Made by a program: the position numbers and the translations under genes
Shown: positions 17,878 through 51,192 of the stretch, piece after piece
How positions within the stretch are numbered: position 1 is the stretch's first letter
Layout: every line of letters starts with the position of its first letter
The notes under the pieces: model-generated
The model's input: the letters and a program-made list of their open reading frames with translations, nothing else
Database searches by the model: none
Told to the model about the DNA's origin: nothing
Origin: Roseomonas sp.
Lineage (GTDB): Bacteria > Pseudomonadota > Alphaproteobacteria > Acetobacterales > Acetobacteraceae
DNA: 64,000 nt
Assembly (NCBI GenBank): GCA_020249925.1
Contig: JADCER010000009.1
Span: forward strand, 62,001 to 126,000
Reading direction: 5' to 3'

Positions 17878-18858
17878 TCAGCTTTCCGGCTTCAGCCCAA
17901 GCCGGCGAATCAGGCCGCCCCAGCGCGCAATATCGGAAGCAAGCAGCGCGCGGAAGGCCTCCGTATCACTCCCCACCACGGTAAAGCCCGCGGTTTCCAA
18001 AGCGCGACGTTGATCAGGCACCGCAAGCGCCTTGCCGGTTTCCTCCGCCAGTCGCGCGATACGATCCGCCGGGAAGCCCGCCGGCGCAAAAAGCCCAATC
18101 CAGGCAATCGCCGGATCGGAAGGCACGCCGGCTTCCGCCATGGTCGGCACTTCAGGCAAAGCCGGGAAACGTTCCGCACTTGTCACCGCCAGCGCCCGCA
18201 CGGAACCATCGCGCACCTGGCCAAGCACACCGCCGGTTGCAGCGAAAAACGCCTGGATGCGCCCGGCGACCAAATCCAACACCGCTTGGCCGACCGCACG
18301 ATAGGGCACATGCACCGCCTCAAAACCCTGCGATGCCGCCAAATCTTCCATCACCAGGTGGGAAAGTGTGCCGGGCCCGGTGGAGGCATAGCTGATCTTG
18401 CCCGGATTGGCCTTGGCGAAGGCAACAAACTCGGCAGCGTTGCGTGCGGGTACCGAAGGATGCACCACCAGCACAAAGGGCAGCCGCGCCAGAAGGCTGA
18501 TCGGCGCCAAATCTGTTGCGGGATCATAGCCCAACGCCGGGTTCAGGATTTTCGCCGTGCTGCCCGGCCCGCCAATTGTCACCCCCAAAGTATGGCCATC
18601 GGTCGCGCGCGCCACGGCTTCCGTGCCGATATGCCCGCCACCGCCAGCGCGATTTTCCACAATCACCGGCTGGCCCAGCACCTGCTGCAAATGCGGCGCA
18701 ATGGCCCGTGCCGCGAGGTCCGGCGTGGACCCGCCCGGAAAAGCACAAATGATCCGCACCGGCCGATCCGGCCAGGCGGCTTGCGCGCGCAGAGCGCCCG
18801 GGCTTGCGGCAAGCCCGGCGCTCAGCGCCAAAAGGGAGCGGCGATGGAAGCTATTCAT
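17878..18858 (-). CDS. Bug-family (TctC-like) periplasmic solute-binding protein
   Basis: This 326-aa protein has a signal peptide of RRSLLALSAGLAASPGALRAQ type and the Bug family blocks WPDRPVRIICAFPGGSTPD, IVENRAGGGGHIG and VPYRAVGQAVLDLVAGRI. It shares only motif-level similarity with its neighbour at 18939-19904, so the two are not a recent duplication. No TctA/TctB genes are near. The ligand cannot be predicted. The stop lies one base from the stop of the convergent ars-operon flavodoxin gene, so transcripts from the two strands run into each other. Confidence 0.9.
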   Translation of the reverse strand: MNSFHRRSLLALSAGLAASPGALRAQAAWPDRPVRIICAFPGGSTPDLAARAIAPHLQQVLGQPVIVENRAGGGGHIGTEAVARATDGHTLGVTIGGPGSTAKILNPALGYDPATDLAPISLLARLPFVLVVHPSVPARNAAEFVAFAKANPGKISYASTGPGTLSHLVMEDLAASQGFEAVHVPYRAVGQAVLDLVAGRIQAFFAATGGVLGQVRDGSVRALAVTSAERFPALPEVPTMAEAGVPSDPAIAWIGLFAPAGFPADRIARLAEETGKALAVPDQRRALETAGFTVVGSDTEAFRALLASDIARWGGLIRRLGLKPES

Positions 18859-18938
18859 GGAATGGTGCCCGGTAAGAATGCACCCTCACAATGGCGTCAG
18901 GCGGCGCGGGCTGCAAGCGGCATATGGTTGCGCGCCCG

Positions 18939-19904
18939 TTACTCAGGCTGGAAATTCGCGAGCCGCAGCAATTCGGCATTGCGGGCCACATCAGCGCGGA
19001 TGAAGGCCTCGGCTTCCTCAACGGTTTCCGCCACGGGCTCAAACCCAAGCCCGCTCAGGCGCTGCACCGTTGCAACTTCACGCATGCCATCAACCAAAAT
19101 GCGGTTAAGCCGCTGCAGGATTTCAACCGGTACGCCGCGCGGCGCCCAAACGCCATACCAGGAATAGAATTCAAAACCGGGCAGCCCTGCTTCCGTCAGG
19201 GTCGGCAAATCTGGCGCCAAGGGCGTGCGTGCGGCGGTGGCCACACCAAGCCCGCGCAATTGCCCCGCGCGCACCATGGGCAAGGTCGCCAGCACCGGAT
19301 CGAACATCAGTTGCGCATTGCCGGCCGCGACATCCGTGAGCGCCGGGGCAGAGCCGCGATAGCCGACGATTTCGATATTCGCCCCGGTCAGGCGATTGAA
19401 TTCAATGCTGCCCAAATGCCCCGCCGCCCCAAGGGAGGATGTGGCGAAGGACCATTTGGCAGGTTCCCGCTTCGCGGCATCCACCACGGCGGGGATGGTG
19501 GTTTGCGGCAAGCGCGGGTTCATCACCAGCACCAAGGGCCCGCGCGCGGTGCGGGCGACCGCCACGAAATCCTGCACCGGATCATAGGGCGCATTGCGCA
19601 TCACATGCCGCGCCATGGGATGGATGGAAGCAGAGCCGAGCAGCGTATAGCCATCGGCTGCTGATTGCAGCACGGCCTGGCTGCCAATCGCGCCATTCGC
19701 TCCAGCCCGGTTTTCCACCACAACAGTCACGCCTAGCGCATCAGCAAGCTTGCTCGCCGCCAGCCGAGACATGGCATCCGTCGCCGCGCCAGGTGTGAAG
19801 GGCACAATCATGCGCAAGGGGCGATTGGGCCAGACACCTTGGGCGATGGCGGGGCTGGCCAAAGCTGCGCTGGTGAGGCCAAGCAGGATATGGCGCCTTT
19901 GCAT
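18939..19904 (-). CDS. Bug-family (TctC-like) periplasmic solute-binding protein
   Basis: This is a second Bug protein of 321 aa, 80 bases upstream of the first on the same strand. The tracked ORF starts at 19964, but the ATG at 19904 sits directly before a standard signal peptide (QRRHILLGLTSAALASPAIAQ) and has a GGGGGT ribosome binding site, so it was chosen. Family motifs are WPNRPLRMIVPFTPGAATD, VVENRAGANGAIG and the YRGSAPALTDVAAG block. Tandem Bug genes like this are probably an expanded uptake repertoire for carboxylates. The divergent molybdenum-hydroxylase gene starts 126 bases away and might use the captured compound; this is inference from position. Confidence 0.9.
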   Translation of the reverse strand: MQRRHILLGLTSAALASPAIAQGVWPNRPLRMIVPFTPGAATDAMSRLAASKLADALGVTVVVENRAGANGAIGSQAVLQSAADGYTLLGSASIHPMARHVMRNAPYDPVQDFVAVARTARGPLVLVMNPRLPQTTIPAVVDAAKREPAKWSFATSSLGAAGHLGSIEFNRLTGANIEIVGYRGSAPALTDVAAGNAQLMFDPVLATLPMVRAGQLRGLGVATAARTPLAPDLPTLTEAGLPGFEFYSWYGVWAPRGVPVEILQRLNRILVDGMREVATVQRLSGLGFEPVAETVEEAEAFIRADVARNAELLRLANFQPE

Positions 19905-20030
19905 GATGACCCCCGGATGTTTGCGCATGAACCTCATTAGGGAGAATGCTTGCCCGCGCGTCAAGAAATCCTTGGGATTGACGAAGCGCCGCCGCGTCTA
20001 TGAGCTTACAGGGCAAGGAAAGGCCAGACC

Positions 20031-22379
20031 ATGAACCATGTGCCCGCCACCATGAGAGGAACCGGCATCGGCGCCCCCGTGCGTCGCGTTGAGGATATGC
20101 GTTTCCTGCGCGGGCAGGGGCGTTATGTGGATGATCTGGGTGGCAGTGATGTCGCGCAGCTTGTGATGCTGCGTTCCCCTCATGCCTCGGCGCGCGTCAC
20201 GAGGTTGGATGTCAGCAAGGCGCGCGGCATACCAGGTGTGCTATTGGTATTGACGCCCGAGGATATTGAAGAACTCGGTGTGCTGCGCTGCATCACGCCA
20301 CGGCTGCAAAGAAATGGATCACCTTTGGCGCAAACGCCTTGGCGTATGTTGGCGATGGGGCAGGTGCGTTATGTGGGTGATGCTGTGGCCGCGGTGATCG
20401 CGACATCGCGCGCGGCGGCGCAGGATGCGGCAGAAGCGATCATTGTTGAATATGAACCCCTGCCCGTGGTGACGGATGTGGCAGAGGCGATCAGGCCCGG
20501 TGCACCGCAGGTTTGGCCCGATTTGGCACAAGAAAATGAAAGCGTCCTGTTCCGCCTGGGCGATGCGGCGGCGGTGGAGGCTGCCTTTGCGCGCGCGGCG
20601 CATGTCACGCGGCTTGATTTCCGCATCACGCGCGTTTCCGCCAATCCCATGGAACCGCGCAATGCGCTGGCGAGTTATGATCCCGTGGAGGATCGCTATA
20701 CGCTGACGACTGGCACGCAATTGCCGCATGTGATGCGCAATGAAATTGCTGAATTCGCGCTGAAGATACCAACGAATAGGCTGCGCATCATCTCGCCCGA
20801 TGTTGGTGGCGGTTTCGGCATGAAGGAAAGCCCGTTTCAGGAATATGTGCTGGCGCTGCATGGCGCGAAGCGGCTTGGTCGGCCGGTGCGCTGGACAGCG
20901 ACGCGCACGGAAAGTTTTTTGGCCGATACGCATGCGCGGGACAATGTCTCAACCGCAGAATTGGCGCTGGCGGCGGATGGTACTTTCCTCGGCTTTCGCG
21001 TGCATACTTTGTGCAATGTTGGCGCCTATCTCGCCTGGCAAGGGCCGGTTTCCGCTACCAATAACGTCGGCGGGCTCGCGGGGGTTTACCGCACGCCGCA
21101 TATTTTTACCGAAGTGCGCTGTATTTTCACGCATACGCAGCCGACCGCGCCCTATCGCGGGGCAGGGCGGCCAGAAGCGATTTACGCGATTGAGCGTATC
21201 ATTGATCTGGCCGCGGATGAAATGGGCATGGACCGGATTGCGCTACGCGAAAAGAACCTGATCCAACCGGAAGCGATGCCGTTTCGTACCGGGCTTGATT
21301 ACACCTATGACAGCGGCGATTTTCCGAAGAATATGGCGCTTGCCCTGAAAGCTGCAGATTGGGCAGGGTTTGAGGCGCGGCGTGCGGAGGCCAAGGCGCG
21401 CGGCAAGCTGCGCGGGATTGGCATTGCCAATGCGATCGAAAGTGCCGGCGGGCCGCATCGTGGGCCTTTGGAAGAATCCGCTGAAATCCGCTTCGATTCC
21501 GGCGGCAGCGTGACCTTGCTGATGGGCAGCCATAATCACGGCCAGGGGCATGAAACGGTGTTTCGCCAGATCGCCTCAGAACGCTTGGGGATTCCGGCCG
21601 AGCGTATCCGCTTCATCAATGGGGACACTGATATCGTAACGCATGGGCGTGGTACGATCGGGTCGCGTTCCATGATGGCCGCAGGTGGCGCGCTGGTGGG
21701 TGCGGCGGAGCGTATTATCGCGCGCGGCAAGAAGATTTCCGCGCATTTCTTGGAAGCGGCGGAAGCCGATATTGAATTCAGCGAGGGGCAATTCCGCATC
21801 GCGGGGACGGATCGCGGCATCGGTATCGAAGCCCTTGCGCGCCGCAGCTACATCCCCGGGCAATTGCCAATGGGCGAAGAACTTGGGCTTTCCGCCTTGC
21901 TCATCACGCGCCCAGGTGACGCGACCTTCCCCAATGGCTGCCATATCGCCGAAGTGGAAATAGACCCTGATACCGGAGAGGCTGAAACTGTCGCCTATGT
22001 GGTGGTGGATGATGTCGGCACCGTGATCAATCCGCTGCTGCTGAAGGGGCAAATTCATGGCGGCATTGCGCAGGGGCTGGGGCAGGTGTTTGGCGAGGAT
22101 ATTCGCTATGACGCCAATGGCCAACTTCTGACTGCAAGCTTCATGGATTACCTGATGCCGCGTGCGGCGGATTTCCCGGATATGGTGGTGAAAAGCAACC
22201 CGGTGCCAACCAAGACCAATCCGCTTGGCGTGAAAGGCGCTGGAGAGGCCGGTACTGTAGGCGCCTTGCCGGTGCTGATCAATGCAGTGGTGGATGCGCT
22301 GCGCCCGCTTGGCATTCGCCATATCGAAATGCCCGCAACGCCGGAGCGTATCTGGGCCGCTATTCGCAACGCCGGTTAG
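20031..22379 (+). CDS. Solitary CoxL/XdhB-type molybdopterin-binding subunit
   Basis: This is a 782-aa large subunit of the xanthine-oxidase family, which would hydroxylate an N-heterocycle, aldehyde or similar substrate. The N-terminal a/b hammerhead starts with RRVEDMRFLRGQGRYVDDL. Moco-binding parts include the GGGFGMKE loop, the PYRGAGRPEA segment and the QGHET segment. The catalytic Glu is in KGAGEAGTVG. PYRGAGRPEA lacks the Cys of the CO-dehydrogenase active-site loop (SYRCAGR), so it is not a form I CODH. The Fe-S (small) and FAD (medium) subunits that normally sit beside it are missing from the window. It converges with the COG0523 gene, with overlapping stop codons. Confidence 0.9.
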   Translation: MNHVPATMRGTGIGAPVRRVEDMRFLRGQGRYVDDLGGSDVAQLVMLRSPHASARVTRLDVSKARGIPGVLLVLTPEDIEELGVLRCITPRLQRNGSPLAQTPWRMLAMGQVRYVGDAVAAVIATSRAAAQDAAEAIIVEYEPLPVVTDVAEAIRPGAPQVWPDLAQENESVLFRLGDAAAVEAAFARAAHVTRLDFRITRVSANPMEPRNALASYDPVEDRYTLTTGTQLPHVMRNEIAEFALKIPTNRLRIISPDVGGGFGMKESPFQEYVLALHGAKRLGRPVRWTATRTESFLADTHARDNVSTAELALAADGTFLGFRVHTLCNVGAYLAWQGPVSATNNVGGLAGVYRTPHIFTEVRCIFTHTQPTAPYRGAGRPEAIYAIERIIDLAADEMGMDRIALREKNLIQPEAMPFRTGLDYTYDSGDFPKNMALALKAADWAGFEARRAEAKARGKLRGIGIANAIESAGGPHRGPLEESAEIRFDSGGSVTLLMGSHNHGQGHETVFRQIASERLGIPAERIRFINGDTDIVTHGRGTIGSRSMMAAGGALVGAAERIIARGKKISAHFLEAAEADIEFSEGQFRIAGTDRGIGIEALARRSYIPGQLPMGEELGLSALLITRPGDATFPNGCHIAEVEIDPDTGEAETVAYVVVDDVGTVINPLLLKGQIHGGIAQGLGQVFGEDIRYDANGQLLTASFMDYLMPRAADFPDMVVKSNPVPTKTNPLGVKGAGEAGTVGALPVLINAVVDALRPLGIRHIEMPATPERIWAAIRNAG

Positions 22380-23341
22380 GCGCGCGCTTCTTCTTCCAAG
22401 GCTTCCAAAAGCCGCGCCGGCCACCATTGCGGAATGCCCTGGCCGATCAGTACCAGGCGCGATCGCCGATCCGCTGATGGCCAATCTTCCAGCCATTGAA
22501 TGGGATGCAGCACATGGCGCACGCCATGCAGCACGGCGGGTTTTTCTGGTGCTTCCGCGACGCGGATGATGCCCTTCATGCGCAGCAATTTCTCCCCGGC
22601 ATGTTCGGCGAGCGCTTCCAGGAATAGCGGCAACACCACGGCGGGGAGCGGTTCTTCACGCAGGATGGAAATGGTCTCCACCCCCGCGCTATGGCGGGCG
22701 CTGGGCGTGGCAATGGCTTCCAACCAATGCTGCAAGGTTTCTGGCCCTGCGGCGGAAGCGAAAAGCATATCCGGTGGAATGGCACCCTGCACCGCGCGCA
22801 GGATTGGCGCGCCGGGATTAAGCGACGCAAGCTTTGCTTCCAAGGCCGTTGTATCGGGCGCAAGATCGGTTTTGCTGAGCAGCAGCCTATCCGCGAGCAT
22901 GGCCTGCTGCGCGGCTTCCGGATGGCGCGTAATTGTCTCGGCACCTAACAGCGCATCCACCACCGTCACCACCGCTTCCACGCGATGGTCCTCCGCAATG
23001 CTTGGGTCCATCAGCAGCGTGTGCAGAATAGGCGCGGGATCAGCGAGGCCCGATGTTTCAATCAGCACGCGGTGATAGGTGACAGCGCCTGATCGGTGCC
23101 GCGCCGCCAGATCGATCAGCGTGCGTGCGAGATCGCCGCGCGTCGCGCAGCAAAGGCACCCATTGGCAAGGCCGAGCAGGTTTTCTTCCGACGTTTCAAG
23201 CAATTCATGGTCAAGCCCGATATCGCCCCATTCATTGACGATCACCGCACTGCCGGCATAGGCGGGATCACGCAGCACAGAACGCAGCAGCGTGGTCTTG
23301 CCGCTACCCAGAAATCCCGTGATGACCGAAACGGGAATCAC
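22376..23341 (-). CDS. COG0523 (CobW/ZNG-like) G3E metallochaperone GTPase
   Basis: This 321-aa G3E GTPase has Walker A GFLGSGKTT (residues 9-17), the EWGDIGLD loop, the metal-binding CxCC motif in NGCLCCATRGDL, ETSGLADP and the base-recognition SKTD. A CobW C-terminal domain follows. COG0523 proteins use GTP to hand Zn, Co or Fe to client enzymes; cobalamin genes are absent here. The start is a GTG overlapping the stop of the 94-aa gene by four bases (GTGA), so it is translationally coupled to the hydantoinase-like operon. The obvious client is that zinc-type amidohydrolase, an inference from position. Confidence 0.92.
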   Translation of the reverse strand: MIPVSVITGFLGSGKTTLLRSVLRDPAYAGSAVIVNEWGDIGLDHELLETSEENLLGLANGCLCCATRGDLARTLIDLAARHRSGAVTYHRVLIETSGLADPAPILHTLLMDPSIAEDHRVEAVVTVVDALLGAETITRHPEAAQQAMLADRLLLSKTDLAPDTTALEAKLASLNPGAPILRAVQGAIPPDMLFASAAGPETLQHWLEAIATPSARHSAGVETISILREEPLPAVVLPLFLEALAEHAGEKLLRMKGIIRVAEAPEKPAVLHGVRHVLHPIQWLEDWPSADRRSRLVLIGQGIPQWWPARLLEALEEEARA

Positions 23342-23622
23342 AATGGCGCCGCAACCCGCGCGCGGGCCGGTTCCGTACTGGTTGCGTTCAGCGCATAACG
23401 CAGGCTCCGCAATAGCCCGAGCATGGAAGCCGCCGGACGGCGCCGGGTTTCACTGATCAGCCACCAGCGCATCGGCGCCTCTGCCGGCGCAGCTGGCGCC
23501 ACATGCAGCACCTGATCGCCCACGGTAACTTTCACGCCGGCATCAGCAATATCCACGCGCCCGGTCACGCCCCAAAGGGTCAGGCTATCAGCAAGCAAGG
23601 CGCGCAGCGCGGGTGGGTTCAT
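23338..23622 (-). CDS. Unknown 94-aa protein between hydantoinase and COG0523 genes
   Basis: The protein is not recognised. The tracked ORF begins at 23670, but ATG 23622 overlaps the hydrolase stop (ATGA) and is the better start. It is small and soluble-looking, with no signal peptide or membrane helix. A first half rich in Leu/Val/Gly (LWGVTGRVDIADAGVKVTVGDQVLHVAP) looks like beta-strands. Then comes a Trp pair (MRWWLISETRRRPAAS) and a basic helix LLRSLRYALNAT. Overlap at both ends (ATGA in, GTGA out) suggests it works with the hydrolase and the GTPase, maybe as an adaptor. There are no Cys or His pairs to mark a metal site. Confidence 0.75.
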   Translation of the reverse strand: MNPPALRALLADSLTLWGVTGRVDIADAGVKVTVGDQVLHVAPAAPAEAPMRWWLISETRRRPAASMLGLLRSLRYALNATSTEPARARVAAPL

Positions 23623-25046
23623 ACGGCGGGCGCGGTGCGGATTTCCTGCGGGATGCGCCGCGGCAGCCATTGCCCACCAGCCGCATCACCGACCCAGCGA
23701 TCATTTTCGACCATGATCTTGCCACGCAAAATGGTCATGGCAGGCCAGGCATCCACCTGGCGGCCTTCCCAGGGCGTATAGTCGCTTTCATGCAAGGCTT
23801 CGGCGCGCACCATGCGCCTAAGCTTCGGGTCAAGGATGCAGATATCCGCATCCGCGCCCGTGGCAATCGCGCCCTTGCGCGGATACATCCCCATGATCTT
23901 CGCGGCATTGGTGGAAACCGCATCAACGAATTGCCGGAGCGTAAAGCCGCGCTTGCCGACCATTTCCGTATACATCACCGCGACACGAGGCTCCACACCT
24001 GAACTTCCGCCAGTTGTGTCATCCACCCGCTTGCCTTGCGTTTTCACTGCCAAGGAACAGCAAAGTTCGTCGGTCGCGACACAGGAAATCGAGCCATCAC
24101 GCGCCCCGGCCCAAAGCTCATCCTGATCCGCCTGAGACTTCAGCGATGGGTAGGTGTGATAGATCTGCCCATTCGGGCGCTTATAATCCTCACTGGTGTA
24201 GAGCATGTATTGATGGAGCGACTCACCATAAATCGGCAGGTCCTTGGCGCGCGCATCGCGAATGGCGCGCACACCATTCCCGGCTGAGACATGCATCATG
24301 TAAAGCGCGGTGCCGGGCACATGTTCCGCGAGACGCATGACGCGGCGGAAGGACAGATCTTCCGAAAGTGTATTATGCACCTCCGCCATATTCTCAAACC
24401 CGGCGCGGTTTTCGCGGAAGAGTTTGGCGTACATATGCATGACAATGTCATTGTCTTCGGCATGGATCACGCCAAGCCCACCCTTGGTGGAAAGCACCTG
24501 AAACACTTCCCAGATATCGCCGAAATCCACCATGCGGCCCTTGCGGGAAGGGGTGATGTCGGTGGTGAAGATTTTCGTGGTGGCGTGGCCGGCTTCAATC
24601 GCCTCCCCCAACTGCGCGGGGATATCGGGCGGCAAATCGCCTTCCACCATGATGTGAAAAGCGTAATCGCAAGGGCAGCCATCGGCCTTCCAGGCGGCGT
24701 GGCGTTCAGCGATGGCGCCTTCAATGGTTTTGCCATGGGTCCAGCGCACGAAATCCAGAATGCTGGTGGTGCCGCCATAAAGCGCGGCTTTGCCGACGAC
24801 CGAAGCGCCCTGGGTTTGATCAATCTTTCCATCTGGCCCCGGGATCGGCCAAAGGCAATGCGTATGCGGGTCAATCCCGCCCGGCATCACGATGCTATCG
24901 CCCGCTTCCACCACCCGCACACCAGGCGGTATGGGCAGGGTACCCGGTGCGGCAATGGCGACGATTTTCTCGCCCGCTATGCCAATTTCAGCCGGCCCAA
25001 TGGCATAGGGCGTGACGACGCAATTGCCCTTGATCACAAGATCCAT
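23619..25046 (-). CDS. Hydantoinase/dihydropyrimidinase-family amidohydrolase (variant)
   Basis: This 475-aa cyclic amidohydrolase has the binuclear metal ligands of the family: HxH in DPHTHC, a carboxylated Lys in TTKIFTTD, His in GVIHAEDN and MMHVSAGNG, and Asp in VATDELCCS. In most dihydropyrimidinases the Asp is followed by His (SDHC or TDHC). Here the stretch reads TDEL with two adjacent Cys, marking a separate subfamily, and the second homologue at 49684 keeps SSDHCAF. The ATG at 25046, after GGGGGTATCACC, replaces the tracked start. The likely reaction is opening of a ring amide such as a hydantoin or dihydropyrimidine; the true substrate is open. It leads a coupled operon with an unknown protein and a metallochaperone GTPase. 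Confidence 0.88.
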   Translation of the reverse strand: MDLVIKGNCVVTPYAIGPAEIGIAGEKIVAIAAPGTLPIPPGVRVVEAGDSIVMPGGIDPHTHCLWPIPGPDGKIDQTQGASVVGKAALYGGTTSILDFVRWTHGKTIEGAIAERHAAWKADGCPCDYAFHIMVEGDLPPDIPAQLGEAIEAGHATTKIFTTDITPSRKGRMVDFGDIWEVFQVLSTKGGLGVIHAEDNDIVMHMYAKLFRENRAGFENMAEVHNTLSEDLSFRRVMRLAEHVPGTALYMMHVSAGNGVRAIRDARAKDLPIYGESLHQYMLYTSEDYKRPNGQIYHTYPSLKSQADQDELWAGARDGSISCVATDELCCSLAVKTQGKRVDDTTGGSSGVEPRVAVMYTEMVGKRGFTLRQFVDAVSTNAAKIMGMYPRKGAIATGADADICILDPKLRRMVRAEALHESDYTPWEGRQVDAWPAMTILRGKIMVENDRWVGDAAGGQWLPRRIPQEIRTAPAV

Positions 25047-25126
25047 GGTGATACCCCCATTCGGCGCTTGGTCTGGCGCCGGGGGGAAGCCTAAACCCAA
25101 AATGCGGGTTTAGGCCAATGCTGGCT

Positions 25127-25600
25127 TCAGCGCCGGGGCGGCGCGGTGCCGGGCACTTCGCGGGAAATGCGTGCGCGGTCCGTTTCCGTCACCGTCACAC
25201 GGTCACCGACCTGCAGCCCAAGCTCATTGGTTTGGGTAATCACGCGTTCGCCGCCGGAATCAGGGCGGATGATGAATTCCATCGCCTCACCACGCGTGGC
25301 GCCTTCTTCAATGGCAGCGCCAGCCGCACCGCCAGCCAGCGCGCCAACCACGCCGCCCACAGTCCGCGCGCGCCAATCACCGCCGATGGTGCTACCCAGG
25401 AAGCCCCCGCCAACAGCACCGGCCGTGGCACCCACGCCGCTGCGTGCGCCGCTTACGGCCACGGGGCGCATGGCGATGATGGTGCCGCGATAGACAGTGC
25501 CTTGGATGCCCAATGCTTGGCGTTCCACGGTTGTGTTCGTCGCCGGCGCGCAGGCAGCAACGCCAAATAGCAGAAGGATGATGGACAGGCGAAGAAGCAT
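25127..25600 (-). CDS. Glycine-zipper outer-membrane lipoprotein (SlyB/Rcp-like)
   Basis: This 157-aa lipoprotein has a signal peptide and lipobox GVAAC (lipidation at C17). The centre is a glycine-zipper 2TM segment (GATAGAVGGGFLGSTIGGD...GGVVGALAGGAAGAAIEEG). The C-terminal beta part has VITQTNELGLQVGDRVTVTE, as in SlyB/17-kDa antigen relatives. Such proteins sit in the outer membrane and affect envelope integrity under stress. A TGAGGAGA ribosome binding site precedes the start. It stands alone, 80 bases downstream of the hydantoinase-like operon region and on the same strand. Confidence 0.88.
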   Translation of the reverse strand: MLLRLSIILLLFGVAACAPATNTTVERQALGIQGTVYRGTIIAMRPVAVSGARSGVGATAGAVGGGFLGSTIGGDWRARTVGGVVGALAGGAAGAAIEEGATRGEAMEFIIRPDSGGERVITQTNELGLQVGDRVTVTETDRARISREVPGTAPPRR

Positions 25601-25743
25601 CAGAGTGTCTCCTCAATCAGGATGATAGACTCAGCCTTGGATCGGCTAGGCAGCAAGGCCCGCCGCAAACCTGCTGGGCTTTTGGCGTCAATCTAGCCAT
25701 GTTTGGCAATACTCCAAGGCGCGATTATGGCGGGCTTTTCGGT

Positions 25744-26544
25744 TCAAGGCGCCGGCAAAAGCGCATCCGTGCGACCCATGAGGCGATAGGCAATAAGCCC
25801 GAGCCATTCCCGAAAACCCCATTCGAATTGACCGAGCCTTTCCGGGAAAGGCGCATCGTAAAGCACAGCCAGGGTATGGCCGGTGCGATAATTCACTGGC
25901 CAGGCGATGATCCCTTGCCAGCCGGCCTTGCGGAACACCCCCATGGCGCGCGGCATATGGCTGGCCGAGGTGACCAGCAGCCAAACCTCATCCGGTTTTG
26001 GCTGCACCAGGGCGTGTGTCAGCACCGCATTCTGATGCGTATTGCGTGCCGCCGCCTCATAAATCACGCGCGGCCCCGAAAGGCCGAGGCCTTCAAAGAA
26101 CTTCCGCGCCACATCGGCTTCAGTCAGCCCGCCATGCACCAGTGAACCCTGGCCACCGGTGAAGACGATACGCGCATCGGGGAAACGCCGCGCCAGCGCA
26201 ACGGTTTCTGTCATGCGTTCCGCGGCGCCATTGATGGCAGGGATGCCGCGTTCATCAGTGATGTTCTGATCCACCGCGCCACCCAGCACAACGATGCCAT
26301 CAACCCGCGTGAGCGGCTCAGCCGGGCGCGCAAAGCGATCTTCCAGCGGCAGCAGAATGAATTGGCTGATGGGGGTTGCGATGAGCAGGAAAAAGAACGC
26401 AAGACAAGCCAGGACAAGCCAGCGGCCAGAGCGTAGCCCGCGCCAGATCATGGCAAGCCCAATGGCACCAACCAGCAGGGCAAAATGTCCCGGCCGTGCC
26501 GGAAACCACAATATCTTTGAGACTATATAGGCAATATCCGTCAT
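25744..26544 (-). CDS. DUF218 (ElyC/SanA/YdcF-like) membrane protein
   Basis: This is a 266-aa inner-membrane protein with two N-terminal helices (FALLVGAIGLAMIWRGL and WLVLACLAFFFLLIATPISQF) and a periplasmic DUF218 domain. That domain has GIVVLGGAVDQ, IVFTGGQGS, the acidic ADVARKFFEGLG stretch, the N-T-x-Q-N segment (AARNTHQNAV) and LVTSASHMPRAMGVFRKAG. E. coli ElyC, of the same family, protects peptidoglycan synthesis; the biochemical role is unknown. The tracked ORF begins at 26622; the ATG at 26544 fits the TM segment better and was used. Confidence 0.88.
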   Translation of the reverse strand: MTDIAYIVSKILWFPARPGHFALLVGAIGLAMIWRGLRSGRWLVLACLAFFFLLIATPISQFILLPLEDRFARPAEPLTRVDGIVVLGGAVDQNITDERGIPAINGAAERMTETVALARRFPDARIVFTGGQGSLVHGGLTEADVARKFFEGLGLSGPRVIYEAAARNTHQNAVLTHALVQPKPDEVWLLVTSASHMPRAMGVFRKAGWQGIIAWPVNYRTGHTLAVLYDAPFPERLGQFEWGFREWLGLIAYRLMGRTDALLPAP

Positions 26545-26646
26545 GACAGGGTCCAAACCGCGCGAGGATTGCGCAAAGCAGCGTCGCCGTGGCCTGTCAA
26601 GCGAAGCGGCGGCCGGGCTCAATCAAGCCCGGCGCCGTCCGTTCAG

Positions 26647-27027
26647 TTACTTGCGGCCAGCTTCGGCCTTGGCAGCTTCGGTCACGCGCTGATCAGCGGC
26701 AAGGATGGTATTGCGCAATTCGCGCATGAAGGCGTTGCCCTTGGGCGTGCGCTGCACCAGTACCGACCGACGATCGGATGGATCAGGCTTGCGCCGGGCA
26801 AGATCATGATCACCCAAACGATCAAGGGCGCGCGTGATCGCCGGCTTGGATACATTCAGCTTTGCGGCCAGGCCGCGCACCGTATGCGGGCCATCCGAAA
26901 GATAGCTGATGAGCATGACACCAAGTTGGCGAGAGGAAAGATCATGCGCATCCCGGCGCACGAGTGCAACGATCGTTTCCTGCAAAACGCGTATCATGTG
27001 ATCTGAGCCATTATTATTGCTGGCCAT
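26647..27027 (-). CDS. MarR-family transcriptional regulator
   Basis: This 126-aa MarR-type winged-helix repressor has RQLGVMLISYLSDGPHTVRGLAAKLNVSKPAITRALDRLGDHDLARRKPDPSDRRSV, the standard MarR helix-turn-helix and wing with the conserved D-x-R-D/S-R-R turn. The tracked ORF starts at 27117; ATG 27027 with an AAAGGAAAA ribosome binding site is more likely. It lacks the usual long N-terminal helix of some MarR proteins and has an Asn-rich start (ASNNNGSDH). It follows the M17 aminopeptidase gene by 115 bases on the same strand. Targets are unknown. Confidence 0.9.
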   Translation of the reverse strand: MASNNNGSDHMIRVLQETIVALVRRDAHDLSSRQLGVMLISYLSDGPHTVRGLAAKLNVSKPAITRALDRLGDHDLARRKPDPSDRRSVLVQRTPKGNAFMRELRNTILAADQRVTEAAKAEAGRK

Positions 27028-27142
27028 TTGATTTTCCTTTCCGTGCGACAAATGCGGCCTTTCCGGCCACTGATTCTCATTGAAGGGCCATAAACTAGCT
27101 GGACCTGATATCGTCATACACAGGTTTCACTGAAATGTCATA

Positions 27143-28510
27143 TCACAATCTCCCTGAAAAATCTTGTAACATTTTAAACATGGCGCGCGCCGCCTGCGCT
27201 TCGCCACCCTCCGGTCTTCCTGGGCGCGTTGAATCGTTCCAGGCATAGACATCAATATGCGCCCATGGCTGCCCCTTCGGCAGAAAACGGCGCAGGAAAA
27301 GCGCGGCCGTCACCGCGCCGGCCATGGGCTTTTGTGAAACATTGCTAAGGTCGGCGAAGGGCGTATCAAGCCAGGAATCATATCCATCATGCAAAGGCAG
27401 GCGCCAAAGCGGGTCCTGAACCGCCTGTCCGGCACGCAAAAGCCCTTCAGCCAAAGCATCATCGTTACTGAAAAGAGCAGGCAGATCAGGGCCCAGCGCC
27501 ACACGGGCAGCGCCAGTAAGTGTAGCAGCATCCAGGATCAGTGCGGGTTGCTGCTCGGTTGCAAATTGTAACAGATCACACAGGACCAATCTTCCTTCCG
27601 CATCGGTATTGCCGATTTCAACCCTTAGTCCCTTGCGCGTATGCAAGACATCCATCGGCCGCATGGCATTACCGGACACAGCATTTTCCACCGCGCCAAT
27701 CAGCACCAGCAGGCGGATCGGCAATCTTGCGCGCATGACCATTTCTGCAACGGCCAACATTATCGCTGCCCCACCCATATCCTTCTTCATACGGAGCATG
27801 GCGGCAGAAGGCTTGATATCGAGCCCACCAGTATCAAAGCAAACCCCTTTGCCGCAAAGCGCTACCAATGGGCCATTGGCATCACCTTCCCAATGCAAGA
27901 TAGCCAAATGCGGTGCGCGGGGACTTCCCGCGCCAACCGCTGCCATGCATGGAAAGCCATCCAACAAGGCTTGACCCGTGATGATTTCCGCGCGGCCATC
28001 ATGGCGCTGCGCCAGACCGGCCGCAGCTTCCGCCAATTGCTGCGGGCCCAATTCAGCCGCCGGCATATTGATAAGGTTCCGTGCGGCGCAGATCGCCTCA
28101 GCCATCATCACCGCATTTTCGGTGCCGGAAGGGGCAATCAACTCAGCCGGGGCGCGTTCCTGGCGCTTGTGATGCAACCAACGATAAGCGCCCAAATGCC
28201 AACCCAGAACGGCATCCGTGGCATTGGGGATGGACCCGGCAAGATGCCAGCGGCTTCCCGCTGGCAGTGACCAGGCTGCGCCACCGAAATGCCAAGGCGA
28301 AGCTTCCTTTCCGATACCGATCACCGCACCGGCCAATCCGTTTTCCCCGGGCAGCAAGGCGATTTCCCCAGGCTTCGCGGCAAAGCCGGAAGCACGCAGA
28401 AACGCCGCAGAAACCTCAGGCAGGCCGGCAAGGAACCCTGGCAGATCCTCGGCGCAAATTGCGTGCAATGGCCGCGAAGAGACCCCTTCAACTGGCGCGA
28501 CTTCAGCCAT
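27143..28510 (-). CDS. Leucyl aminopeptidase family protein (M17)
   Basis: This two-metal M17 aminopeptidase of 455 aa releases N-terminal residues from peptides in the cytosol. The C-terminal catalytic domain has the KGVCFDTGGLDIKPS and KKDMGGAA ligand blocks and the signature NTDAEGRLVL. The variable N-terminal domain (about 1-150) resembles E. coli PepB-like or alphaproteobacterial forms and not classic PepA. The tracked start is a GTG at 28537; ATG 28510 with an AAAGGGAAAG ribosome binding site is better. A plausible promoter lies about 105 bases upstream. Confidence 0.92.
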   Translation of the reverse strand: MAEVAPVEGVSSRPLHAICAEDLPGFLAGLPEVSAAFLRASGFAAKPGEIALLPGENGLAGAVIGIGKEASPWHFGGAAWSLPAGSRWHLAGSIPNATDAVLGWHLGAYRWLHHKRQERAPAELIAPSGTENAVMMAEAICAARNLINMPAAELGPQQLAEAAAGLAQRHDGRAEIITGQALLDGFPCMAAVGAGSPRAPHLAILHWEGDANGPLVALCGKGVCFDTGGLDIKPSAAMLRMKKDMGGAAIMLAVAEMVMRARLPIRLLVLIGAVENAVSGNAMRPMDVLHTRKGLRVEIGNTDAEGRLVLCDLLQFATEQQPALILDAATLTGAARVALGPDLPALFSNDDALAEGLLRAGQAVQDPLWRLPLHDGYDSWLDTPFADLSNVSQKPMAGAVTAALFLRRFLPKGQPWAHIDVYAWNDSTRPGRPEGGEAQAARAMFKMLQDFSGRL

Positions 28511-49683: not shown

Positions 49684-51171
49684 CTAAATCGCTGGCGGCG
49701 GCGCCGGATCAAACCCATCAGGCGTGATGCCGCGCGGCCTGATCATGGCGTAAGGCCCGCGCGGCAGGAAGCGGCCAGTGCCGGGTTCTGCCTGCACCTT
49801 GCCATCACGCATCACCACTTCGCCGCGACGGATGGTCATGACGGGCCAGCCGGTGACCTCCATCCCCTCATAAGGGGTGTAATCAATCGCGTGCTGCATC
49901 AGCGCATTGGTGATGGTGACTTTCTTCTTCGGATCCCAGAGCGCCAGATCGGCATCCGCACCGACAGCAATCGCGCCCTTACGCGGCGCGAGGCCCATCA
50001 GCCGCGCGGGGTTGGTGCTGGTCAGGCGAACGAATTCATCCAGGCTGATGCGGCCCTTGGAAACACCTTCGCTGAAAATGATCGGCAGGCGCGCGGTGAA
50101 GCCCGGAATGCCATTTGGGATATCGCGGAATACCGCATCCGAACCATTCTGGCGCTTGCCGCGATCACCTTCGAAGGAAAAGGCGCAGTGGTCGGATGAA
50201 ATCACATCCAAGGTGCCGCGCCGGATCATTTCCCACACGCGTTCATGTTCCGCGCGGCTGCGCGGTGCTGGGCTGCACATGAATTTCGCACCCTCAAAGC
50301 CCGGGCGATCCATATCGGCAGCGGTCAGGCTGATGTATTGCGGGCAGGTTTCACCCCATACCTTCACGCCACGCGCCTGGGCGCGCGCGATTTCCTCGGC
50401 GGCTTCTTCGCAGGAGACATGGAAGATTTGGATCGGCTGATCCACCAATTCCGCGAGCGCAATGGCGCGATGCGTCGCTTCACGTTCCACCACCGGCGGG
50501 CGCGCCCAGGCATGGTATTTCGGCGCTGTCATGCCATGCTTCAGCAATTCATGGGTGCGCCAATTGATCGCCTCATAATTCTCGCAATGCACCGTCACAA
50601 GACAGCCGAGCGTGCGCGCCTTGGTGAGAACACGGAGATACTGCGCATCATTCAAATGCAAAGGTTCGTAGGTGAGGAAGACCTTGAGGCTGCGCACCCC
50701 TTCCGCGACAAGCTTTGGTACTTCCTGATCCATCACGGTATCGGTCGGATCGCTGATGATCTGGTGGAAGGAATGGTCAATCATGCCGCGGGCGGCGCGG
50801 GCGCGGTAATCCGTATAGCGTTCCCAAACGCCATAGCCCTTCCATTGTGGAATGAAGCACACAACGGAAGTGGTACCACCGGCGAAGGCGGCGGTGGAGG
50901 CGGTGGCGAAGCTTTCCTCATTCACCGTGATCGGTGGTTCCGCGAGGCCGGTGCTCGCATAGCCGCCGCGTGAGGGTTCTTCGATATGGCAATGGCTATC
51001 CACGCCGCCGGGCAGCACCAGCGTGCCGGTAGCATCCACCACGCGTGCGCCATCGGAAAGCTTTTCGCCAAGCGCCACAATGCGCCCATCCTTTACGCCA
51101 ATATCGCAACGCGTGGTGCCGAAGCCGGTTGCAACCTCTCCGCCACGCACCACCAGATCGAATTCCGCCAT
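49684..51171 (-). CDS. Dihydropyrimidinase-like amidohydrolase
   Basis: This 495-aa cyclic amidohydrolase would open dihydropyrimidine, hydantoin or allantoin-type rings. Metal ligands: HxH in DSHCHIE, carboxylated Lys in SLKVFLTYE, His in VTVHCEN and IFHVSCEEA, Asp in SSDHCAFSFE. It keeps the His after the metal Asp, unlike the relative at 23619. It lies at the 3' end of a seven-gene directon headed by prpF. ATG 51171 has AGGGG at the right spacing; the ATG two codons earlier has none. Two members of this superfamily 25 kb apart point to versatile cyclic-amide breakdown. Confidence 0.9.
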   Translation of the reverse strand: MAEFDLVVRGGEVATGFGTTRCDIGVKDGRIVALGEKLSDGARVVDATGTLVLPGGVDSHCHIEEPSRGGYASTGLAEPPITVNEESFATASTAAFAGGTTSVVCFIPQWKGYGVWERYTDYRARAARGMIDHSFHQIISDPTDTVMDQEVPKLVAEGVRSLKVFLTYEPLHLNDAQYLRVLTKARTLGCLVTVHCENYEAINWRTHELLKHGMTAPKYHAWARPPVVEREATHRAIALAELVDQPIQIFHVSCEEAAEEIARAQARGVKVWGETCPQYISLTAADMDRPGFEGAKFMCSPAPRSRAEHERVWEMIRRGTLDVISSDHCAFSFEGDRGKRQNGSDAVFRDIPNGIPGFTARLPIIFSEGVSKGRISLDEFVRLTSTNPARLMGLAPRKGAIAVGADADLALWDPKKKVTITNALMQHAIDYTPYEGMEVTGWPVMTIRRGEVVMRDGKVQAEPGTGRFLPRGPYAMIRPRGITPDGFDPAPPPAI

Positions 51172-51192
51172 GGTCATCCCCTGTTGTTAAAA

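Follow-up and report, generated by a model that had tools for sequence, protein, structure and literature searches.

A COG0523 GTPase, a small protein and a hydantoinase-like hydrolase form a conserved gene trio in Acetobacteraceae: a putative metal-insertion module with a new client

A 64,000-nucleotide stretch of a Roseomonas sp. genome (contig JADCER010000009.1, positions 62,001 to 126,000; hereafter the window) carries three consecutive genes that encode a D-hydantoinase-like amidohydrolase (P0001), a small protein and a COG0523 GTPase. The best reading of our analysis is that this trio represents a COG0523 module for metal insertion whose client is new and whose small protein belongs to no named family. 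It was hypothesised that the module is dedicated to metallocentre maturation, the GTPase metallating the hydrolase and the small protein acting as an adaptor, and we put the probability of this reading at about two in three. The observations behind it are the conserved and coupled gene order, the co-retention of the partners where their genes are unlinked, a natural fusion, the cognate GTPase clades and the intact metal ligands of the hydrolase.

Eighty related loci were recovered in a scan of species genomes (loci are numbered with L below, and genomes with G), mostly from Acetobacteraceae (Roseomonas-type metagenome-assembled genomes (MAGs), Belnapia, Siccirubricoccus, Roseicella, Caldovatus, Rhodopila and others); a few came from MAGs labelled as beta- or other alphaproteobacteria. 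The small protein had a homolog at 75 of these loci and its gene adjoined the hydrolase gene at 74, and the GTPase gene directly followed the small gene at 51 of the 80, three of them fused. The original prediction, made from the letters of the window, had staked its module on the gene order recurring in relatives, and the order was indeed conserved across Acetobacteraceae. Since no neighbouring gene beyond the trio was common to all loci, the trio persisting across differing neighbourhoods, the trio itself is the conserved unit. In phylum-wide samples, the small protein and the hydrolase of clade A, to which the window hydrolase belongs, were essentially confined to Acetobacteraceae. MAGs titled Asaia bogorensis (L042, L043, L047 and L097) carry trio copies or the hydrolase as well; because three of them are 95-96% identical to Roseomonas-type MAGs, these labels look wrong.

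The same prediction had described three minus-strand genes joined by ATGA and GTGA overlaps, which the coordinates and our reading of the junctions bore out (Table 1). In relatives, a 4-nucleotide overlap with an in-frame start codon was seen at 59 of the 74 hydrolase/small-gene junctions and at 47 of the 48 unfused small-gene/GTPase junctions; the genes are coupled by such overlaps more often than expected by chance.

The partners of the trio are co-retained even where their genes are unlinked, as was seen in a sample of 250 Acetobacteraceae genomes in which a clade A hydrolase was called at an identity of at least 59%. The hydrolase occurred in 59 genomes, the small protein in 57 and both in 56; three genomes held the hydrolase without the small gene, one the small gene without the hydrolase, and 190 neither. 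Either partner was thus present in one of the 191 hydrolase-free genomes (G280), where the small gene stands at the very start of a contig that is cut at that point. A GTPase match above 285 bits was obtained in 51 of the 59 hydrolase genomes, among them G151, whose GTPase is of clade B type by tree (see below). The other eight comprised G048, which holds a full cognate GTPase by tree, four genomes with partial or weaker matches (53-61% identity), and G038, G170 and G211, in which no cognate GTPase was found, and a cognate GTPase is present in about 55 of the 59. Where the GTPase gene was not adjacent, its ortholog usually lay elsewhere in the genome (15 of 23 such genomes had a match above 310 bits); G709, the genome of L081, holds the same GTPase copy as the one verified by tree in G048.

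Each of the three pairwise links among the trio genes also exists on its own. Hydrolase and small genes with the GTPase gene unlinked or farther off were common (e.g. G222, G150 and G129), and small and GTPase genes stood together with the hydrolase gene elsewhere in Caldovatus (L156-L158, L201 and L204). In clade B (L149-L154), whose hydrolases are 54-56% identical to the window hydrolase, the GTPase gene lies immediately upstream of the hydrolase gene and there is no small gene. The small protein forms the N-terminal part of a fused GTPase, as a single intact protein in L098 and L091 and with a frameshift in L084; since the intact fusions group together in the GTPase tree (support 98/96), they possibly go back to one fusion event that spread. 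In the same tree, one clade (94/90) united the GTPases of hydrolase genomes, whether adjacent, fused or unlinked, and the clade B GTPases formed their own (100/99), which includes the unlinked GTPase of G151. Since G151 pairs a clade A hydrolase with this clade B-type GTPase and has no small gene, the need for the small protein may be tied to the type of GTPase. At the level of sequence, the conserved trio, the co-occurrence of unlinked partners, the fusion of small protein and GTPase and the clade B pairing support the earlier claim that the system is dedicated to the hydrolase.

By its domains, the GTPase is a COG0523/CobW-like member of the G3E family (cobW, PF02492, 156 bits against a cut-off of 20.7; CobW_C, PF07683, 62 bits against 22). 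It is YjiA-like, the nearest solved structure being that of E. coli YjiA, and the metal-binding CxCC site read earlier as NGCLCC was confirmed at residues 60-65. The GC.CC motif was present in all trio GTPases examined save the frameshifted L084.

The GTPase might instead be a general zinc-homeostasis COG0523 protein of the ZigA/ZagA/YciC type, with the hydrolase merely an operon-mate or a zinc-saving stand-in like the PyrC and HisI paralogs. Paralogs of zinc enzymes such as the amidohydrolase PyrC are indeed frequent in clusters with COG0523 genes (PMC2770081), and the Zur-regulated YciC, ZigA and ZagA, which go with HisI, PyrC or FolE2 paralogs, share the GTPase family and the CxCC motif with the trio. 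However, the same genome has a separate COG0523 gene of Zur type, the closest paralog of the trio GTPase gene (L116:5813-7813; G000:C22). Its neighbours are HisI2 (PF01502) and a gene of the FUR family, and a Zur-box-like site, TGTTACTTTATAACA, lies between them (L116 7276-7290). In the window, no Zur-box-like site was found. The trio GTPases, moreover, are set apart in the tree from the Zur-linked (HisI2- and FUR-linked) paralogs, have a client and a small partner of their own and accompany the hydrolase even when unlinked, and the metal ligands are retained in the trio hydrolase but not in the Zur-linked PyrC paralog. A Zur-regulated type was thus rejected for the trio GTPase on the missing site in the window and the separate clade, and we consider this alternative very unlikely.

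In Pfam and NCBIfam profile searches the hydrolase fell into Amidohydro_1. The closest solved structures are D-hydantoinases and the best-scoring models are those of D-hydantoinase/dihydropyrimidinase, yet the scores stayed under the cut-offs (TIGR02033, 290.5 of 393 bits; PRK13404, 291 of 647). The window hydrolase belongs to the same fold family as D-hydantoinases and dihydropyrimidinases and has all six of their metal ligands, H61, H63, K158, H195, H252 and D326 (HxH, Lys, His, His, Asp), and in clade A the six were present in every complete sequence, the sole exception found being L155. It differs from these paralogs, to which it is about 31-35% identical, in its substrate pocket, where clade A has Y299 and G346 in place of the Ser/Thr and Asn of 12/12 paralogs, and in the loop TDITPSRKGR inserted after the Lys ligand, which the paralogs lack. 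Because of Tyr299, Gly346 and this insert, the substrate is probably no simple hydantoin or dihydropyrimidine. In addition, a Cys pair follows the metal Asp in 94 of 94 aligned rows of clades A and B and in 0 of 12 paralog rows; the motif is DE[LIV]CC across both clades, with DA replacing DE in one member. Judged by these residues, the window hydrolase is no canonical hydantoinase, the metal ligands being intact and the substrate pocket changed. This qualifies the original description as a hydantoinase-like binuclear-metal enzyme.

The window also contains an internal control, a canonical D-hydantoinase/dihydropyrimidinase (49684-51177, minus strand; TIGR02033, 495 bits, cut-off 393), and none of the genes called around it was a COG0523 gene. 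A further enzyme of hydantoinase type shares about 33% identity with the window hydrolase, scores above the TIGR02033 cut-off and is devoid of the CC motif; in two genomes (L117:6593-8946 and L180) it has a COG0523 GTPase directly downstream. The only match in a search of plasmids for hydrolase homologs was one of 45% identity on a plasmid of Arthrobacter sp. StoSoilB13 (L229:7001-8417), which has a broken reading frame and DGVCT for DELCC; the surrounding 15 kb, a stretch for which no genes are listed, yielded no GTPase.

The exception in clade A, L155 (genome G211; L155:7357-8784), belongs to this clade by tree, although identity binning had put it with clade B. It carries H63N and H252N with the CC motif retained, and neither the small protein nor a cognate GTPase was found in G211. 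This hydrolase may be degenerate or repurposed, and the loss of ligands alongside the absent partners would be a single yet telling case.

The small protein had no family match in Pfam or NCBIfam. Its gene is under purifying selection, with a ratio of nonsynonymous to synonymous substitution rates of about 0.11-0.30 in seven within-genus comparisons, and D12, W17, R52 and W53 were invariant in an alignment of 39 diverse members. Since no conserved Cys or His was found in this alignment, the small protein is unlikely to carry metal itself. The predicted model (pLDDT, a per-residue confidence score, 91.5) has the order helix, five strands, helix (alpha-beta5-alpha) and resembles frataxin in topology, common ancestry being unproven. 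A Foldseek search of the PDB with the model gave no match at E < 0.001; bacterial frataxin/CyaY was among the top matches (prob 0.77, TM 0.48 over 61 columns) with a non-significant E of 1.1. A profile comparison with frataxin was weak (14%, P 0.0019, versus 0.5%, P 0.11, for a reversed decoy), and the frataxin profile PF01491 had no match at E<=1 among the 39 members. On these grounds, homology with frataxin was not established.

The small protein could also serve the hydrolase as a structural or regulatory subunit (for stability, oligomer formation or gating of the substrate) or be a GTPase-activating factor, rather than an adaptor in metal transfer. Its lack of conserved Cys or His suits this explanation, as does its persistence with the hydrolase in G170, L090 and L115, for which no cognate GTPase was found. 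On the other hand, it is fused to the N-terminus of the GTPase in relatives, remains with the GTPase when the hydrolase gene lies elsewhere, and is absent from clade B and from G151 with its clade B-type GTPase. We regard this explanation as possible but rather doubtful.

Catabolic genes were frequent around these loci. Clade A neighbourhoods contain genes for DAO-family FAD oxidoreductases (11 loci), luciferase-like monooxygenases and RidA- and PNPOx-like proteins, and an ABC importer abuts the GTPase gene in G261 and lies near the hydrolase gene in G151. Around clade B, the gene of a RutA equivalog (625.7 bits against a cut-off of 498) is accompanied by genes for amidases and for an importer-binding protein. 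Taken together, the neighbours of both clades fit the breakdown of a nitrogen heterocycle. The clade B clusters of L151 (3032-9250) and L153 (4267-9719), with amidases, the COG0523 GTPase, the hydrolase and, in L151, the RutA equivalog, form a candidate heterocycle-degradation operon. Close to the unlinked cognate GTPases of L159 (5366-7193) and L191 (1500-3324) there are paired hydrolases resembling deacetylases (PF01522 on one), which possibly hint at a ureide or amide pathway. Such neighbours (RutA and amidases in clade B, the oxidoreductases, the monooxygenases and the importer) would also be expected if the trio were clustered merely through one catabolic pathway and the GTPase matured another metalloenzyme of it. 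However, no gene besides the trio was common to all loci, and clade B couples the GTPase with the hydrolase in a different gene order; this explanation thus appears very unlikely.

From the observations on the trio we infer metal transfer, its direction, the role of the small protein as adaptor and the kind of substrate, as described below. The CxCC motif in switch I of the COG0523 GTPase would bind a transition metal, and the small alpha-beta5-alpha protein would dock the GTPase onto the apo-hydrolase. On GTP hydrolysis, the metal would then be released into the binuclear site, made up of HxH, a carboxylated Lys, two His and Asp, perhaps via the Cys pair beside the Asp ligand, and the mature hydrolase would open a cyclic amide, imide or ureide other than a standard hydantoin or dihydropyrimidine. 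A more specific idea, which we hold to be unlikely, is that the small protein is a frataxin-like co-chaperone between the G3E GTPase, as metal carrier, and an enzyme of hydantoinase fold with a Cys-flanked binuclear site that might hold a metal other than zinc.

Several facts weigh against the maturation module. D-hydantoinases are generally not known to require a GTPase chaperone. G038 (90% complete) has an intact hydrolase, and neither the small gene nor a cognate GTPase was found there; in G170 and the related Rhodopila-type MAGs L090 and L115, the hydrolase and the small protein occur and no cognate GTPase was found. The ligand loss in G211 is one case only, and its CC motif is still there. 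Finally, co-occurrence within the family, counted here regardless of kinship, partly reflects shared ancestry.

The features of the locus are listed in Table 1. The inverted repeat upstream of the trio is probably the terminator of the preceding lipoprotein-like gene; the trio is therefore likely its own transcription unit. An Rfam/riboswitch scan of window positions 20000-28000 gave no match. A gene for a molybdopterin-binding large subunit (xanthine dehydrogenase/CoxL-like; 20031-22379, plus strand) is convergent with the GTPase gene, with an end overlap of 4 nucleotides, and a pair of tandem TctC-type solute-binding proteins is encoded at 17878-19964 on the minus strand.

Table 1. Positions in the window of the trio genes and of the elements discussed in the text
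Feature	Position	Strand	Details
Hydrolase gene	23619..25046	-	475 amino acids, ATG start; D-hydantoinase-like binuclear amidohydrolase, clade A, presumed client
Small-protein gene	23338..23622	-	94 amino acids, ATG start; presumed adaptor or co-chaperone
GTPase gene	22376..23341	-	321 amino acids, GTG start; COG0523 (CobW-like G3E)
ATGA overlap	23619..23622	-	Hydrolase stop / small-gene start
GTGA overlap	23338..23341	-	Small-gene stop / GTPase start
HxH metal-ligand motif H61-T-H63, then C64	24858..24866	-	Codon positions from ATG at 25046
D326-E-L-C329-C330	24057..24071	-	Metal-ligand Asp and Cys pair
P-loop GFLGSGKTT of GTPase	23291..23317	-	
CxCC metal-binding motif C62-L-C64-C65 of GTPase	23147..23158	-	GCLCC = residues 61-65
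Perfect 9-bp inverted repeat CCTAAACCC-GCATTTT-GGGTTTAGG	25090..25114	-	Between trio and upstream lipoprotein-like gene

In the UreG/HypB systems (with UreE, UreF/H or HypA), a G3E GTPase and a small accessory protein bring metal to one enzyme. The trio resembles them in having a G3E GTPase and a small accessory protein, and differs in that its GTPase belongs to the COG0523 subfamily and its small protein has no detected similarity to any named family; the UreG/UreF/UreH complex is mentioned in PMC9164220. The reading of the trio as a maturation module follows the analogy of Nha3/P44k (COG0523 subgroup 2), the activator of Fe-type nitrile hydratase; there, too, a catabolic metallohydrolase has a COG0523 GTPase dedicated to it (PMC9164220, PMC2770081). 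Like Nha3, the trio GTPase shows conserved linkage to a single client enzyme; the trio differs in the client fold, in the predicted binuclear site and in the extra conserved small protein, which is no subunit of the client. The small protein is like frataxin/CyaY in its predicted topology, by the non-significant match given above.

In keeping with the original prediction, the client appears to be new among COG0523 partners, the hydrolase being absent from the clients discussed in PMC9164220 and PMC2770081. In the open-access literature, we found no paper joining COG0523 with a hydantoinase or dihydropyrimidinase and no description of the trio; the one match to CobW and hydantoinase was discarded, since the cluster is of acetophenone-carboxylase type and its hydantoinase B annotation is unrelated. 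Many COG0523 clusters are without a characterised member, and the use of gene clusters has been advised for predicting clients (2022 review, PMC9164220).

Few COG0523 clients are established, and the trio offers a specific client prediction and a new co-factor, with natural fusions, rearrangements and a probable case of loss available for testing that prediction. Cyclic amidohydrolases are usually thought to acquire their metal unaided. If the reading of the trio as a maturation module is true, it would extend dedicated metallation by GTPases to cyclic amidohydrolases and give a COG0523 system a third component.

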